DNA from: Flavobacteriales bacterium | GTDB taxonomy: Bacteria > Bacteroidota > Bacteroidia > Flavobacteriales_F > PHOS-HE28 | NCBI GenBank assembly: GCA_018057455.1 | Contig: JAGPDT010000005.1 | Location: forward strand, 1-64,000 | DNA length: 64,000 bases | Direction: 5' to 3' | Shown here: positions 17,089-64,000 of the stretch, in pieces | How the letters are laid out: every line of letters starts with the position of its first letter | Numbering within the stretch: position 1 is the stretch's first letter | Position numbers and translations under genes: made by a program | Notes under the pieces: model-generated | The model's input: only the letters and a program-made list of their open reading frames with translations | The model's database searches: none | Told to the model about the DNA's origin: nothing

Positions 17089-18543
17089 ATGGAGACCTTG
17101 GAAAAAAAGGCCAGCTATGAGGCTGGCCTAAAGGAGTATGTGGATCGCGAGAAAGCCGCCGTGGACCTGCTCGGTTCGGTCGGCCAGCTCATGTACGAGC
17201 ATGGTGTGGAGCTGGTGCTCTTCCGCAATCACCTGCTGGACATCAACACCTCGGAGGCCATCAAGCTCTTCAACTACGCCGAAACGGTGGTGCACAAGCC
17301 CATCGACATAGGCATCGCCGCCGAAATGGCCCGCATCATGCGGGGCATGGACCTGGCCCCCAGCAAGATCGACATCGGCCGCTTGGCACATGAATTCAAG
17401 CAGTCCGGCACTGCTTCGGTCGCCGGCTTCTTGGGGACCACCCTCAAGGAGTTCATCGGCCAGGACAAGCATACCTTCAAACCGCAGGACGTGGTGCTGT
17501 ACGGCTTCGGCCGCATTGGCCGCATCGCCGCGCGTGAGCTCGTGAAACAGGCCGGCAAGGGCCAACAGCTCCGCCTGCGCGCCATCGTGCTGCGCACCCT
17601 GAACGATACCGAGATCGTGAAGCGCGCCGCCCTGTTGCGCAACGACAGCGTGCACGGCGCCTTCAAAGGCACCGTGGAAGAGGACCTCGCCAACAAGTCG
17701 ATCATCGTCAACGGCCAGCGCGTGCAACTGATCGCCGCTGCCAATCCCGAGGACATCGACTACACGGAATACGGCATCCACGATGCCATGGTGATCGACA
17801 ACACCGGCGTGTTCAAGGACCGCACCGCACTGGAGCGGCATCTGAAGCCCAAGGGCGCCAAGTTCGTCCTGCTCACCGCTCCCGGCAAGGAGATCCCGAA
17901 CATCGTGTACGGCATCAACCACAAAGGCTTGGACCTGGAGCAGGAGCGCATCTTCAGCGCAGCCAGCTGCACCACCAACGCCATCGCCCCCATCCTCAAG
18001 GTGGTGGAAGACAACCTCGGCATTGAGAAAGGCCACATCGAAACGGTGCACGCCTATACCAACGACCAGAACCTGCTGGACAATTACCACAAGGGCGCCC
18101 GCCGCGGGCGCAGTGCCGCCATCAACATGGTGATTACCACCACCGGTGCCGGTTCCGCCGTAAGCAAGGCCATCCCCAGCCTGAAGGACAAACTGACGGC
18201 CAATGCCGTGCGCGTGCCCACGCCCAACGGTTCGCTGGCCATCATGAGCCTCACCGTGAAAAAGGACGTGACCCGCGACGACATGAACGCCATGGTGCGC
18301 CATGCCGCCCTCAACGGCGACCTGATCAACCAGATCCACTACCAGGTGGACCCGGAACTGGTGAGCAGCGACATCATTGGCGACCCCTGCTGCAGCGTGT
18401 TCGACAGCAACGCCACCATCGCCAGCAACGACAGGCGTAACGTGGTGCTCTACGCGTGGTATGACAACGAATTCGGATACACCAAACAGGTGATCCGCCT
18501 GGCGAAATACGTTGCCAAAGTGCGCCGCCTGGTGTACTACTGA
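17089..18543 (+). CDS. gap: Glyceraldehyde-3-phosphate dehydrogenase with N-terminal extension
   Basis: 484 residues from the ATG at 17089. The catalytic core begins near residue 133: Rossmann motif GFGRIGR (from Gly139), catalytic Cys294 in ASCTTNAIAP, and the C-terminal WYDNEFGY signature. Typical GAPDH has about 335 residues; here about 130 helical residues precede it (including LFRNHLLDINTSEAIKLFNYAE), a type known in Bacteroidota and some gammaproteobacteria. The enzyme oxidises glyceraldehyde 3-phosphate with NAD(P) and phosphate in glycolysis or gluconeogenesis. The role of the extension is unknown. It sits 40 bp after the sigma factor gene and ends at a clear intrinsic terminator. Confidence 0.94.
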   Translation: METLEKKASYEAGLKEYVDREKAAVDLLGSVGQLMYEHGVELVLFRNHLLDINTSEAIKLFNYAETVVHKPIDIGIAAEMARIMRGMDLAPSKIDIGRLAHEFKQSGTASVAGFLGTTLKEFIGQDKHTFKPQDVVLYGFGRIGRIAARELVKQAGKGQQLRLRAIVLRTLNDTEIVKRAALLRNDSVHGAFKGTVEEDLANKSIIVNGQRVQLIAAANPEDIDYTEYGIHDAMVIDNTGVFKDRTALERHLKPKGAKFVLLTAPGKEIPNIVYGINHKGLDLEQERIFSAASCTTNAIAPILKVVEDNLGIEKGHIETVHAYTNDQNLLDNYHKGARRGRSAAINMVITTTGAGSAVSKAIPSLKDKLTANAVRVPTPNGSLAIMSLTVKKDVTRDDMNAMVRHAALNGDLINQIHYQVDPELVSSDIIGDPCCSVFDSNATIASNDRRNVVLYAWYDNEFGYTKQVIRLAKYVAKVRRLVYY

Positions 18544-18565
18544 ACATTTTCGATCACGGACCATC

Positions 18566-18600
18566 AAGGGCTGCCCACCGGGCGGCCCTTGCCTTTTCCT
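18566..18600 (+). terminator. Intrinsic terminator after GAPDH
   Basis: An 11-bp stem with one T-G wobble (18566-18576 with 18580-18590) and a 3-nt loop, 22 nt after the stop, followed by GCCTTTTCCT. Confidence 0.75.
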
Positions 18601-18644
18601 GATCACGCCACGCCCTATCGGTCAACCCCGGAGACGCCACCCCA

Positions 18645-18663
18645 AGGCCATGGACCATGGCCT
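18645..18663. repeat. Perfect 19-nt palindrome between convergent genes
   Basis: Two 9-nt arms, AGGCCATGG and CCATGGCCT, flank a single A. It lies between the GAPDH terminator and the end of the moxR gene, where neither gene starts. The 1-nt centre makes it look more like a protein-binding site than a terminator. The rest of the 18601-18822 interval shows nothing recognisable. Confidence 0.6.
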
Positions 18664-18822
18664 GCTTCAGGTGCCGCCGGGTGCGCGGCCAGGGCTTTTC
18701 CAGAGGCCCGATCCGGCGCCCCAGCGCCGTGAGTTCCCGACCGTGAAGGCGAAGCACGTGTCGGCGCATGCTTCCAAGCCCACCCGACGCCCGATCCCTG
18801 TGTTAGGCCCTCACGGCGTGGT

Positions 18823-47538: not shown

Positions 47539-48429
47539 ATGGGCGCGCTGTCCTTCTACCTGCTTCTTCCGTTGATCTATGGCATTTCACTGTTGCCGTT
47601 CCGGGTGCTGTACGTGCTGAGCGATGTGCTGGAATCCCTCCTCTTCGGGGTGTTCGGCTACCGGCTGAAGGTGGTGCGGGAAAACCTGCGCAACAGCTTT
47701 CCGGGGAAGAGCGTAGCGGACCTGCAGCGGATCGAGCATGAATTCCGGCGGTGGTTCTGCGACCTGATGGTGGAAACGATCAAAACGCTGACAATCACGC
47801 CCAAGCAGGTGAACATGCGCATCAGCGTGGAGGGCACCGAGGTGCTGCAAAGGTACTATGACGCGGGGCAGAGCGTGATCCTCGTAATGGGGCATTGGGG
47901 CAACTGGGAGTTGGGCGGGGCGCGCTTCAGCCAACTGCCCTTCCATAAGTTGAATGTGATCTACCACCCCTTGCAGAACAAGCACTTCGACCGCCTGTTC
48001 ATCCGCATGCGCACCCGCTTGGGCAATGGCCTGTACCCCATGAAGGATACGGTGCGGTGCATGGTGCGCGACCGCCATGAGGTGACGGCCACGGCGTTCA
48101 TCGCCGACCAGACGCCCTCGCCGGAACATGCCTACTGGACCACCTTCCTGCACCAGGACACACCGGTATTTTGGGGCACGGAGACCATTGCACGCAAGCT
48201 GGACCGGCCCGTGGTCTACTTGGGCCTCGATCAACCCCGGCGCGGTCATTACACCATGCGTTTCGAGCTCTTGGAGGCCGACCCCGCCACAACCCAGGAG
48301 GGCGCCATCAGCGAGCGGCACACCCGTCGGTTGGAAGAAGACATCCGCATGCGGCCGGCCCTTTGGTTGTGGACACACCGGCGATGGAAGCACGGTGGGC
48401 GCGAGCCGTTCACCGGGCGCATCCGGTAG
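47539..48429 (+). CDS. Lipid A biosynthesis acyltransferase (LpxL/HtrB-like)
   Basis: 296 residues from the ATG at 47539. An N-terminal membrane helix (SFYLLLPLIYGISLLPFRVLY) and the family block VVRENLRNSFPGKS precede the catalytic motif HWGNWE, the H-x4-E form, in VILVMGHWGNWELGG; IADQTPSP and WLWTHRRWK follow. These enzymes transfer secondary acyl chains to Kdo-lipid A or related lipids at the inner membrane. A one-mismatch -7 box (TTTCTTTG, 47524-47531) lies 7 nt upstream of the ATG. A desaturase gene follows on the same strand. The specific acyl chain cannot be inferred. Confidence 0.92.
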   Translation: MGALSFYLLLPLIYGISLLPFRVLYVLSDVLESLLFGVFGYRLKVVRENLRNSFPGKSVADLQRIEHEFRRWFCDLMVETIKTLTITPKQVNMRISVEGTEVLQRYYDAGQSVILVMGHWGNWELGGARFSQLPFHKLNVIYHPLQNKHFDRLFIRMRTRLGNGLYPMKDTVRCMVRDRHEVTATAFIADQTPSPEHAYWTTFLHQDTPVFWGTETIARKLDRPVVYLGLDQPRRGHYTMRFELLEADPATTQEGAISERHTRRLEEDIRMRPALWLWTHRRWKHGGREPFTGRIR

Positions 48430-61132: not shown

Positions 61133-63733
61133 TCAGCCCAGCAGTGCGGCCGCCTTCTTCAGCGCCTTGGGCAGCCCTTCCGGGTCTTTCCCTCCGGCCG
61201 TGGCATAGAATGGTTGCCCTCCACCGCCGCCCTTGATCTCCGCCGCCAGTTCCTTGATCGCCTTCGGCGCGGTGATGCCCTTGGCGATCAGGTCCGCGCC
61301 CACCATCACGGCCAGCAGTGCCTTGCCTTCTTTGCGGGCACCCAGCACCAGTAGGAGGTCCGGGTGGGCCTCTTTCAAACGGAAGGCCAGGTCGCGCATG
61401 CCGTTGGCATCCAGGTCCACCTCTTCGGCCACCACCCGGGCACCGTTCACTTCCACGGCGTTGGCAAGGATGGTGCCCTGCAGCTGGCCCACGCGCTCCT
61501 GTGCGGCCTTCTCCATTTCCTTGGCCATGGCCGCGTTCTGCTCCAGCAGGTGTTTCACGGCCTGGGTGATGTCCACGGGGTGCTTCAACAGTTCCTGCAG
61601 TGCATCCAAGGTGTCCAGCCGTTGCTGCACGAACTGCTCGGCACCTTCGCTGGTGATGGCCTCCAAGCGGCGGATGCCCGCGGCCAACGCCCCTTCGGAC
61701 ACAATGCGCAGGCTGCCGATCTCGCCGGTGCGCGGCACATGGGTGCCGCCGCACAGCTCCACGCTGCCACCGAACTTGACGACCCGTACCGCATCGCCGT
61801 ATTTCTCGCCGAACAACGCCATGGCCCCCATGGCTTTCGCCTGTTCCATGGGCGCTTCCCGGAGTTCCTCCAAGGGTACATCGGCACGGATGGCCTCATT
61901 GACCGCGACTTGCACCCGGGCCAACTCCTCCGCCGTGATCCGGGCGAAGTGCGATACATCGAAACGCAGCCGGTCCGGCGCCACCAAGGAGCCTTTCTGC
62001 TCCACATGGTTTCCCAACACGTGGCGCAGGGCATGGTGCAGCAAGTGGGTGGCGGTGTGGTTGCGCCGGGTGAGCTTGCGCCGGTGCTCATCCACCGCGG
62101 CGGTGAGCGGCGCGCCAACATCGGCAGGCAGCTCCTTGGTGAAGTGCACGATCAACTGGTTCTCCTTCCGGGTGTCCAGTACCTGCACCATTCCAGCTCC
62201 CTGTACGAGCCAACCCTGGTCGCCCACCTGGCCACCACCTTCGGGATAGAAGGGCGTGCGGTCCAACACGACCTGGAAGTGGTCGCCGGACTTGTCCTTC
62301 ACTTTGCGGTAGCGCAGCACCCTGGCCTGGGTGCGGAGCTCGTCGTAGCCCGTGAACTCCGGGGTGCCGTGGTGCAGTTCGGTCCAATCCCCGGCGGTGA
62401 TTGCCGTGGCGGCGCGGGAGCGCTCCTTCTGTTGCCTGAGTTCGCGGTCGAAGCCGTCCATGTCCACCTCCAGTCCCTGTTCCCGGGCCATCAGGCGGGT
62501 AAGGTCGATGGGGAACCCGAAGGTGTCGAAGAGTTCGAAGGCCTTGGCGCCGTCGAGGATGCGTGAGCTTTCGGCCACCAGCTGTTCCAAGCGCTTGGTA
62601 CCGGTCTCCAAGGTTCGCAGGAAGGCCCGTTCCTCTTCGTGGACCACGCTGGCCACCAGGGTTTGCTGCTTTCCAAGCTCGGGGAACTGCCCGCCCATCT
62701 GGTCCACCAGTACGGGTACCAGCGCATGGATGAACGGTTCGTGGAGGCCCAGGAAGCTGTAGCCGTAGCGAACGGCGCGGCGCAGGATCCGGCGGATCAC
62801 GTAGCCCGCGCCGGTGTTGGAAGGCAGCTGCCCATCGGCAATGGCGAAGGCGATGGCCCGCAGGTGGTCGGCCACCACGCGCATGGCCACGTCGGCCTTG
62901 TTGTCTGCACCGTAGCGCTTGCCGCACTGCCGGGCAATGGCCTGGATCAGCGGTTGGAAGACGTCGGTGTCGTAATTGCTCTGCTTGCCCTGAAGCACCA
63001 TGCAGAGCCGTTCGAAGCCCATGCCGGTATCCACGTGTTTGGCGGGCAGGGGGTGCAGGGAGCCGTCGGTCTTGCGCTCGAACTGCATGAACACGTTGTT
63101 CCAGATCTCGATCACCTGCGGATGGTCGTTGTTCACCAGGCTTGTGGCGGGGGCGGCCTTCTTTTCTTCCGCCGTGCGGATGTCCACGTGGATCTCCGTG
63201 CAAGGGCCGCAGGGGCCGGTGTCGCCCATCTCCCAGAAATTGTCCTTGCGGCCGAAGGGCATCACGCGTTCGGCGGGCAGGAAGTTCAGCCAGAGGTCCC
63301 GTGTCTCCACATCGGCCTCCAGCTTGTCGGCCGCATCACCCCCGAAATAGGTGACATAGATGTTGTTGGGATCGATCTTGAAAGTGTCCGTCAGCAATTC
63401 CCACGCCCACTGGATCGCTTGCGGCTTGAAGTAATCGCCGAAGCTCCAGTTGCCCAGCATCTCGAACATGGTGTGGTGGTAGGTGTCGATGCCCACCTCC
63501 TCCAAGTCGTTGTGCTTGCCTGATACGCGCAGGCATTTCTGCGTGTCGGCAATGCGGGGATGGGCCACGGGGCGGTTGCCCAGGAACAGGTCCTTGAACT
63601 GGTTCATGCCCGCATTGGTGAACATGAGCGTGGGATCGTCCTTCACCACCATGGGGGCACTGGGCAGAATGGTGTGGCCGTGTTTGGCGAAGTGGTCCAG
63701 GAAGGCTTGACGGATCTGCTGCGAGGAGGGCAT
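61133..63733 (-). CDS. alaS: Alanine-tRNA ligase
   Basis: 866 residues, normal length for bacterial AlaS. Class II aminoacylation domain at the N-terminus (SSQQIRQAFLDHFAKHGHTILPSAPMV, TNAGMNQFKDLFLG, HHTMFEMLGNWSFGDYFK), tRNA-binding middle, editing domain with zinc ligands HTATHLLHHAL and CGGTHVPRTG, and a C-terminal Ala domain with GGGGGQPFYATAGG. Charges tRNA-Ala and clears Ser/Gly-tRNA-Ala. A one-mismatch -7 box (TAAATTCG on the minus strand, 63762-63769) lies 28 nt upstream. The divergent partner starts 150 bp away, with a G-rich repeat between. Confidence 0.95.
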   Translation of the reverse strand: MPSSQQIRQAFLDHFAKHGHTILPSAPMVVKDDPTLMFTNAGMNQFKDLFLGNRPVAHPRIADTQKCLRVSGKHNDLEEVGIDTYHHTMFEMLGNWSFGDYFKPQAIQWAWELLTDTFKIDPNNIYVTYFGGDAADKLEADVETRDLWLNFLPAERVMPFGRKDNFWEMGDTGPCGPCTEIHVDIRTAEEKKAAPATSLVNNDHPQVIEIWNNVFMQFERKTDGSLHPLPAKHVDTGMGFERLCMVLQGKQSNYDTDVFQPLIQAIARQCGKRYGADNKADVAMRVVADHLRAIAFAIADGQLPSNTGAGYVIRRILRRAVRYGYSFLGLHEPFIHALVPVLVDQMGGQFPELGKQQTLVASVVHEEERAFLRTLETGTKRLEQLVAESSRILDGAKAFELFDTFGFPIDLTRLMAREQGLEVDMDGFDRELRQQKERSRAATAITAGDWTELHHGTPEFTGYDELRTQARVLRYRKVKDKSGDHFQVVLDRTPFYPEGGGQVGDQGWLVQGAGMVQVLDTRKENQLIVHFTKELPADVGAPLTAAVDEHRRKLTRRNHTATHLLHHALRHVLGNHVEQKGSLVAPDRLRFDVSHFARITAEELARVQVAVNEAIRADVPLEELREAPMEQAKAMGAMALFGEKYGDAVRVVKFGGSVELCGGTHVPRTGEIGSLRIVSEGALAAGIRRLEAITSEGAEQFVQQRLDTLDALQELLKHPVDITQAVKHLLEQNAAMAKEMEKAAQERVGQLQGTILANAVEVNGARVVAEEVDLDANGMRDLAFRLKEAHPDLLLVLGARKEGKALLAVMVGADLIAKGITAPKAIKELAAEIKGGGGGQPFYATAGGKDPEGLPKALKKAAALLG

Positions 63734-63771
63734 GTTGGGGGTCCGGATAGGAATGGCGGCGCGAATTTAGG

Positions 63772-63834
63772 GGGCAGGTGCAGTGGGCAGGTGCAGTGGG
63801 CAGGTGCAGGGGGCAGGGGGCAGGGGGCAGGGGG
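63772..63834 (+). repeat. G-rich tandem repeat with G-quadruplex motif
   Basis: A 13-bp unit GGGCAGGTGCAGT occurs three times (63772-63784, 63785-63797, 63798-63810, the last ending in G), then GGGGGCA three times followed by GGGGG (63809-63834). The second part has four G5 runs with 2-nt CA loops, an ideal intramolecular G-quadruplex pattern on the plus strand. It lies between alaS and the divergent gene. CACCTGCC at 63849-63856 can pair with the GGCAGGTG part of the units. Confidence 0.85.
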
Positions 63835-63868
63835 TGTGGCGGCCCACGCACCTGCCGCCTGCCATCTC

Positions 63869-63876
63869 TATTTTTG
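63869..63876 (+). promoter_or_regulatory. -7 promoter box of the window-end gene
   Basis: TATTTTTG, an exact TAnnTTTG match, followed by seven C residues and the ATG at 63884. Predicts a leaderless transcript. No -33 TTTG; the G-rich repeat lies 35 nt upstream. Confidence 0.55.
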
Positions 63877-63883
63877 CCCCCCC

Positions 63884-64000
63884 ATGGCCGAGCACAAGTA
63901 CCGCTTCAACCACGACACGCTCAACTTTGAGCGGATCCGGCTCAGTGGCTGGAAGAAGGTGAAGCGTGTGTCCCTTGCGTTGGCGCCGGGGCTGCTCTTG
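63884..64000 (+). CDS. Partial gene, possible M23 peptidase N-terminus
   Basis: The first 39 codons of a gene cut off by the window end. The start MAEHKYRFNHDTLNFERIRLSGWKKVKRVSLALAPGLLL has a short cytoplasmic tail (tyrosines and basic residues) followed by a beginning hydrophobic segment. This tail pattern (KYxxNxxTLxxExI) and the position divergent from alaS recall M23-family metallopeptidases of Bacteroidota, which cut peptidoglycan cross-bridges. The catalytic region lies outside the window, so this is an inference. Confidence 0.5.
   Translation, partial: MAEHKYRFNHDTLNFERIRLSGWKKVKRVSLALAPGLLL

Follow-up and report, generated by a model that had tools for sequence, protein, structure and literature searches.

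Cyanobacteria carry short tandemly repeated repetitive (STRR) heptanucleotides, and the palindromic elements of Rickettsia, which are conserved in sequence and about 100-150 bp long, form in-frame palindromic inserts in protein genes; a palindromic coding repeat has reportedly been described in Mollicutes. For Xanthomonas and Nostoc, G-rich heptameric repeats with the units GGGAATC and GGGGA(C/T)T have been described, and oligonucleotides of these heptads form quadruplexes in vitro (Rehm et al. 2015, PMC4692102). According to the same report, two xanthomonads contain 70 and 75 convergent inverted heptad pairs, respectively, 11% and 7% of the repeats at least partly overlap genes, and 8% and 7% are situated between divergent genes (PMC4692102). 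The report also mentions Calothrix heptads and describes heptameric repeats as over-represented in bacteria, offering for the number seven a hypothesis only, namely the idea of a polymerase contact (PMC4692102). Direct repeats of the heptad TAACTGA have been reported from, among others, five Bacteroidetes; in relatives, contigs frequently terminate in these repeats, and the author raises the possibility that they are mobile (MacGregor 2015, PMC4679880). Heptads within genes as such are therefore already known (PMC4679880, PMC4692102). In yeast, template switching homogenises the arms of inverted repeats (PMC8604942).

The repeat element between alaS and the peptidase gene

The stretch of DNA analysed here, referred to as the window, comprises the first 64,000 nucleotides of contig JAGPDT010000005.1 of a Flavobacteriales bacterium (assembly GCA_018057455.1; the source genome). 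Close to its end, the alanyl-tRNA synthetase gene alaS and a gene for a Peptidase_M23 protein are divergently arranged, and each is preceded by a box resembling TAnnTTTG, the -7 consensus in the phylum Bacteroidota. The first-pass annotation of this DNA had reported an ideal quadruplex sequence of four G5 runs, preceded by three 13-bp units, between these two boxes, and we confirmed all three points (Table 1). The G5 tracts lie at 63809-63813, 63816-63820, 63823-63827 and 63830-63834 and are joined by CA, and a fifth is found at 63770-63774, before the 13-bp units. The unit GCAGGTGCAGTGG occupies 63774-63786 and 63787-63799, and the third unit, at 63800-63812, differs from it in one base.

Table 1. 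Positions of the features discussed; coordinates refer to the window unless a contig of the source genome (C) or another genome (G) is given.
Feature	Position	Strand	Basis	Remark
alaS (alanyl-tRNA synthetase, 866 aa)	61133..63733	-	ORF; Pfam tRNA-synt_2c, tRNA_SAD, DHHA1	left neighbour
-7-like box of alaS, CGAATTTA on +, equal to TAAATTCG on -	63762..63769	-	sequence and spacer comparison	
G-rich left arm	63770..63834	+	sequence, TRF, shuffles	degenerate 7/6-bp repeats of GGCAGTN/GGGGGCA type
three 13-bp units (7+6)	63774..63812	+	sequence, TRF	third with one mismatch
quadruplex motif (GGGGGCA)3GGGGG	63809..63834	+	motif search, shuffles, G4Hunter	
centre	63835..63849	.	sequence, fold prediction	15 bases between arms
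short C-rich right arm, ACCTGCCGCCTGCC	63850..63863	-	sequence, predicted fold	14 bases, reverse-complement units
-7-like box of M23 gene, TATTTTTG	63869..63876	+	sequence and spacer comparison	
Peptidase_M23 gene, start	63884..64000	+	ORF; Pfam PF01551, E 3.8e-35	runs past window end
rsgA insert (L078)	C22:11415-11525			directly before DTPG motif of RsgA GTPase; length and type vary across genus
cyclase paralogues (L083, L084)	C25:3905-3990, C25:11405-11500			in-frame GTTGTCA hairpins at same C-terminal position
synthase (L086)	C32:20205-20290			linker joining acyl carrier and aminotransferase domains holds inverted heptads
Y1-like ORF (L142)	G004:C1:1469910-1471206			flanking arrays terminate copies of a repeated sequence that are separated by about 1.25 kb

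The array is periodic beyond chance. Its lag-7 self-match of 29/35 exceeded the maximum of 23 seen in 100 dinucleotide shuffles, TRF gave periods of 6, 7 and 13, and the lag-13 self-match was higher still (33/35). From its sequence, we read the 13-bp unit as a 7+6 variant of the 7-bp repeat. The quadruplex motif likewise stands out: with tracts of at least four G, one motif was found in the window against 0.09 expected from shuffles, its G4Hunter score is 2.96, and the most extreme 25-nt score of either sign in the whole window falls here. The exact four-tract motif occurs only once in the source assembly (3.31 Mb, 130 contigs). When G3+ motifs were counted, the window held four against 8.7 expected from shuffles, and hence there is no general excess of such motifs. 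Another quadruplex motif, at 47889-47920, appears by eye to lie inside a coding sequence.

On its left side the array starts immediately next to the alaS box TAAATTCG (minus strand), and on the right the last G5 tract is followed after 15 bases by a second, C-rich arm and then by the M23 box. The predicted fold pairs this right arm with the left one. The prediction was not convincingly stronger than for shuffled sequences (z -1.6 for the DNA plus strand, z -1.0 for RNA of the minus strand), and we rejected a strong RNA or DNA hairpin at the spacer because the fold lies within the shuffle range. The right arm is short and without ACT, which weakens the reading of the locus as a hairpin element; the window copy as a whole contains two AGT and zero ACT. 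Neither a terminator nor a sigma-70 promoter was found in 63500-64000.

We compared the spacer with those of related genomes. The alaS locus was queried in 45 genomes of the genus, of which 40 matched, and 36 spacers could be parsed (29 of 30 and 7 of 9 tried). In these homologous spacers the M23-type box shape occurred 26 times against 1.2 expected from shuffles and the alaS-type shape 27 times against 1.0; the promoters are thus retained in most relatives, whereas the sequence that separates them is not. A 7-bp period at p<0.01 was detected in five of the 36 spacers (source, G031, G013, G023 and, weakly, G012) and was absent at this threshold from the other 31, including that of G020, the sister of the source genome in the alaS tree (30 genomes, support 100/98; the tree rests on this one marker gene, and the genomes are drafts). 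The suggestion that the repeat varies among relatives was therefore borne out. Among the 36 spacers only source and G031 have a GGCAGT-type array, and the heptads of G013 and G023 are of TGACTG type. Only two spacers, those of source and G039, contain a G3 quadruplex motif, and the latter is not a heptad array; relatives thus do not retain the quadruplex at this promoter.

Source and G031 share both edges of the array, TTTAGGG..GCAGG and CCTGCCGCCTGCC..TATTTTTG, and a right edge resembling that of source was found in G031 and also in G021. The parsed stretch measures 449 bases in G031 against 168 in source, with GTTGTCA-type heptads inside it, so that in the G031 spacer (L048) one heptad type is enclosed by another. 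The alignment of the edges with those of G031 speaks against the concern that the repeat might be an assembly artefact, as does the position of the array inside a 74.5-kb contig, but six other arrays are found at or close to contig ends, and the exact copy number is therefore provisional.

Dispersed heptad arrays and their polarity

Similar repeats occur at unrelated genes throughout the source genome, some of them within genes. A pattern of three GGCAGTN units, GGCAGTNGGCAGTNGGCAGT, matched 127 places in this genome with up to three mismatches, compared with two for the reversed pattern. With at most one mismatch it was found in 23 of 31 genomes retrieved by an order-level search, all of which belong to the source genus, and the reversed control in none of the 31. 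At the looser threshold, the counts for pattern and reversed pattern were 71 and 3 in G004, 18 and 4 in G023, 14 and 3 in G017, 13 and 4 in G010 and 10 and 0 in G038; in two of the seven relatives the pattern fell below its control (G025, 9 vs 11; G019, 6 vs 18). Across the phylum, the GGCAGTN pattern with at most one mismatch was present in 41 of 296 genomes (24 of 140 genera), source included. This rules out that the pattern is unique to the genus, and the reversed control, with matches in 18 of the 296 genomes by hand count, indicates that heptads of several kinds are widespread.

Long arrays are located on source contigs C75, C129, C27, C22, C26, C56 and C57, and short ones between adjacent genes on C18 and C63. 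The units comprise GGGGGCA, GGCAGTN, GTTGTCA and others, but not GGGNATC or GGGGA(C/T)T, and (GTTGTCA)n is a second common array type. Six GGCAGT arrays lie at a contig end or within about 550 bp of it (C22, C26, C27, C56, C75 and C129). At the threshold used, 20 other contigs (C1-C20) showed no lag-7 segment within their initial 200 bases, and such arrays therefore account for only some of the contig breaks. On C10 (L296, around 18531-18797) a run of N adjoins an array of TTTCAGC heptads and may be a scaffold gap that the repeat produced. Another class of heptad is represented at G004:C1:1300392-1300461 (L341), where a regular (CGCTCTG)n array lacks the AGT core.

We also surveyed unbiased stretches at a permissive threshold, namely 339 kb of source (window included), 200 kb of G004 and 200 kb of G010. 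Heptad segments listed there numbered six, four and two, respectively. By lag, the source stretches contained four segments at lag 7, four at lag 8 and five at lag 14, those of G004 four each at lags 7 and 8, and those of G010 one at lag 7 and five at lag 6, so that period 7 has no large lead over other periods in these 739 kb. The heptad family is clear, as judged by the sequence and arrangement of its members, and not from sheer density.

Many of the arrays are inverted pairs in which AGT-bearing units are followed by a short centre and then by ACT-bearing units. In eight chosen genomes, AGTTGTC-N4-34-GACAACT occurred at 34 places (28 distinct by hand count) and its reversed control at six; the pair in opposite polarity was found at no place, and the control for that search again at six. 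Among 20 source arrays that were listed, and in part chosen, by hand, 12 hold both AGT and ACT, and the AGT arm comes first in 11 of these 12; six of the 20 contain a canonical G3 quadruplex motif and 14 do not. A constant centre, CGGCYGCC, is not claimed, because by eye it was present at only about five of the 28 inverted sites, some of them probably orthologous.

In-frame heptads in rsgA and other genes

Protein-coding genes of the source genome also contain inverted heptads in frame, namely rsgA, two paralogous cyclase genes and the gene of an acyl-carrier/aminotransferase synthase (Table 1; rsgA, one cyclase and the synthase were identified with Pfam). We followed the rsgA insert through the genus, searching 45 genomes, of which 39 matched, and parsing all 30 loci that were recovered. 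The loop ranges from 12 to 69 amino acids without interruption of the frame; in 14 loci it measures 12-22 amino acids and in 16 loci 25-69. Among the latter, lag 7 was the strongest of lags 4-11 in 14 of 16, and the similarity of the two arms lay above all 100 letter shuffles in 12; clear arm pairing was absent from the remaining four long inserts (G006, G013, G022 and G044). The largest insert, 69 amino acids in G044 (L331), carries heptads resembling CTCAACT and, in addition, a longer repeat inside it. The palindromic in-frame insert in rsgA, patchy among relatives, is a result for the family, and the window copy itself is intergenic.

By eye, the inserts are of GTTGTCA type in G032, G004, G023 and G035, of GTAGTTC type in G006, G020, G002 and G018, of GAGTGGC type in G019, G033, G026 and G008 and of other heptad types in source, G013 and G044. 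In source, an inner GGCAGT array is enclosed by an outer pair of GTTGTC type, and in G020 GTTGTC units remain at the left edge only. When source is scored as GTTGTC type, hand parsimony on the alaS tree requires at least four changes of type among the nine insert-bearing members of the source clade. The arms of an insert resemble each other more within genomes (mean similarity 16.6) than between genomes (9.8). The best match of a right arm was the left arm of its own genome in only three of 16 inserts, one of them a tie, because genomes that share a type also match one another; homogenisation of the arms is thus suggested, not proven.

The rsgA loop offers a natural series, that is, one site in one reading frame across 30 genomes, with and without an insert and with different heptads, in which the rule of growth, be it slippage, template switching or transposition, becomes testable.

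Origin of the array and comparison with known repeats

Hairpin elements of the kind seen in the spacer are, on the evidence of sequence comparison, dispersed in the source genome and in several others of the genus, in spacers as well as in protein loops, and different heptads appear at one and the same site in different species. Considering these observations together, we regard the spacer array as probably the left arm of an inverted heptad-repeat element, a loose hairpin spanning 63770-63863 that was shaped by slippage and template switching and whose quadruplex is likely a by-product. We infer that these two processes lie behind the arrays in general: replication slippage would add and remove units in 7-bp steps, template switching at the hairpin would keep the two arms alike, and new units may arise at its centre. 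In genes, selection would purge versions that break the frame, and in spacers those that break a promoter. The (GGGGGCA) version in the alaS spacer may derive from (T)GGGCAG units that drifted towards a higher G content, and the quadruplex would then be a likely by-product of it. Any effect on alaS or the M23 gene would be exerted by the element, which would occupy the alaS -33 region and space the two -7-like boxes by about 100 bp, and the formation of a hairpin or quadruplex might modulate it; a local effect on alaS, with its -33 region presumably inside the array, is possible.

Slippage alone does not predict the fixed polarity of the inverted pairs. One could envisage a lineage-wide, self-perpetuating family of hairpins with AGT at the 5' and ACT at the 3' side, which grow at the tip, nest within each other, have their type rewritten in both arms and are tolerated in frame in conserved genes such as rsgA, with a dedicated copying enzyme, perhaps a Y1 transposase, in place of plain slippage setting the polarity and the window copy as an invader of a divergent promoter whose G content rose far enough to allow a quadruplex; we put this forward as a speculative proposal that is rather unlikely to hold in full. 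It is also unlikely that the hairpins are simply mobile palindromic elements that a transposase, such as a REP-associated Y1 enzyme, copies and that subsequently drift. The fixed polarity, the distinctly shorter loop that 14 of the 30 rsgA loci have and the nesting of heptad types in the G031 alaS spacer and in source rsgA would fit such mobility. Moreover, Y1_Tnp matches were obtained in all five genomes tested, an ORF of G004 with the Y1-like motif MPNHLHL is situated between two short CTGCCGCCTGCC arrays of GGCAGT type (L142), and the single Y1 match of source (L126) lies about 600 bases from a heptad-like array of another type. However, this match is partial and the only one in a genome with many arrays, and neither a target duplication nor a constant centre was recognised. 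In addition, heptads were not generally enriched near Y1 matches: 24 of the 26 matches in the five genomes were examined, and their surroundings, 80 kb in all, contained two lag-7 segments, compared with about 1.3 expected from the 12 such segments in the 739 kb of unbiased stretches.

The first-pass annotation had proposed that quadruplex folding could affect both divergent genes. The motif itself is excellent, it is placed between -7-like boxes that are common among the homologous spacers, and quadruplexes introduced into E. coli promoters had effects (Rehm et al. 2015, PMC4692102). Nevertheless, a dedicated promoter quadruplex that jointly regulates alaS and the M23 gene is improbable, and the comparison with other loci and genomes did not support the proposal. 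The sister genome and 31 of the 36 spacers, at p<0.01, are without a heptad array, a G3 motif formed by heptads is confined to the source spacer, two of the other four period-7 spacers (G013 and G023) consist of TGACTG-type heptads, 14 of the 20 source arrays lack a G3 motif, and similar repeats occur at unrelated genes. For the heptameric repeats of Rehm et al., 7-9% of which lie between divergent genes, the authors were unable to assign a role in regulation (PMC4692102). Quadruplex motifs in such genomes may instead be by-products of repeat dynamics. It is very improbable that a sequence-specific protein or RNA regulator binds the heptads, as has been proposed for the TAACTGA repeats of Beggiatoaceae (PMC4679880): some arrays do stand immediately before a start codon, for instance on contig C18, but the heptads at one site differ among species and their positions include loops of conserved proteins.

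Among known systems, the STRR sequences of cyanobacteria are dispersed heptanucleotide tandems like the arrays described here, but with other sequences and in another phylum. The Rickettsia elements are conserved in sequence, whereas the features shared by the inserts reported here are the 7-bp period and the symmetry of the arms only. Template switching as found in yeast would explain why arms are alike, also in coding DNA, although the yeast case is without heptads (PMC8604942). The TAACTGA repeats resemble the present family in that they are heptads, form arrays at contig ends and include some sets within genes (PMC4679880). They differ from it in consisting of a single heptad that, in the main genome studied, is almost always directly repeated and mostly precedes start codons, and their sets within genes are located mainly at protein ends, unlike the inserts in the rsgA loop (PMC4679880). 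Among the titles and abstract openings searched in the open PMC literature, none concerned in-frame inverted heptads of changing type in bacterial genes. As described by Rehm et al. (PMC4692102), the repeats of Xanthomonas and Nostoc share with those reported here the 7-bp unit, the many dispersed, mostly intergenic copies, the capacity for quadruplexes, the inverted pairs and the variable copy number. They differ in that only part of the present arrays could form quadruplexes, the lineage here belongs to the Bacteroidota, the units are mostly xAGTnnn and not GGGNATC, and rsgA contains in-frame copies with species-specific heptads (cf. PMC4692102). Judged by its sequence features, the closest described relative of the spacer heptads is the heptameric repeat of Xanthomonas and Nostoc, from which they differ in unit sequence and in the rsgA inserts with their changing heptads.
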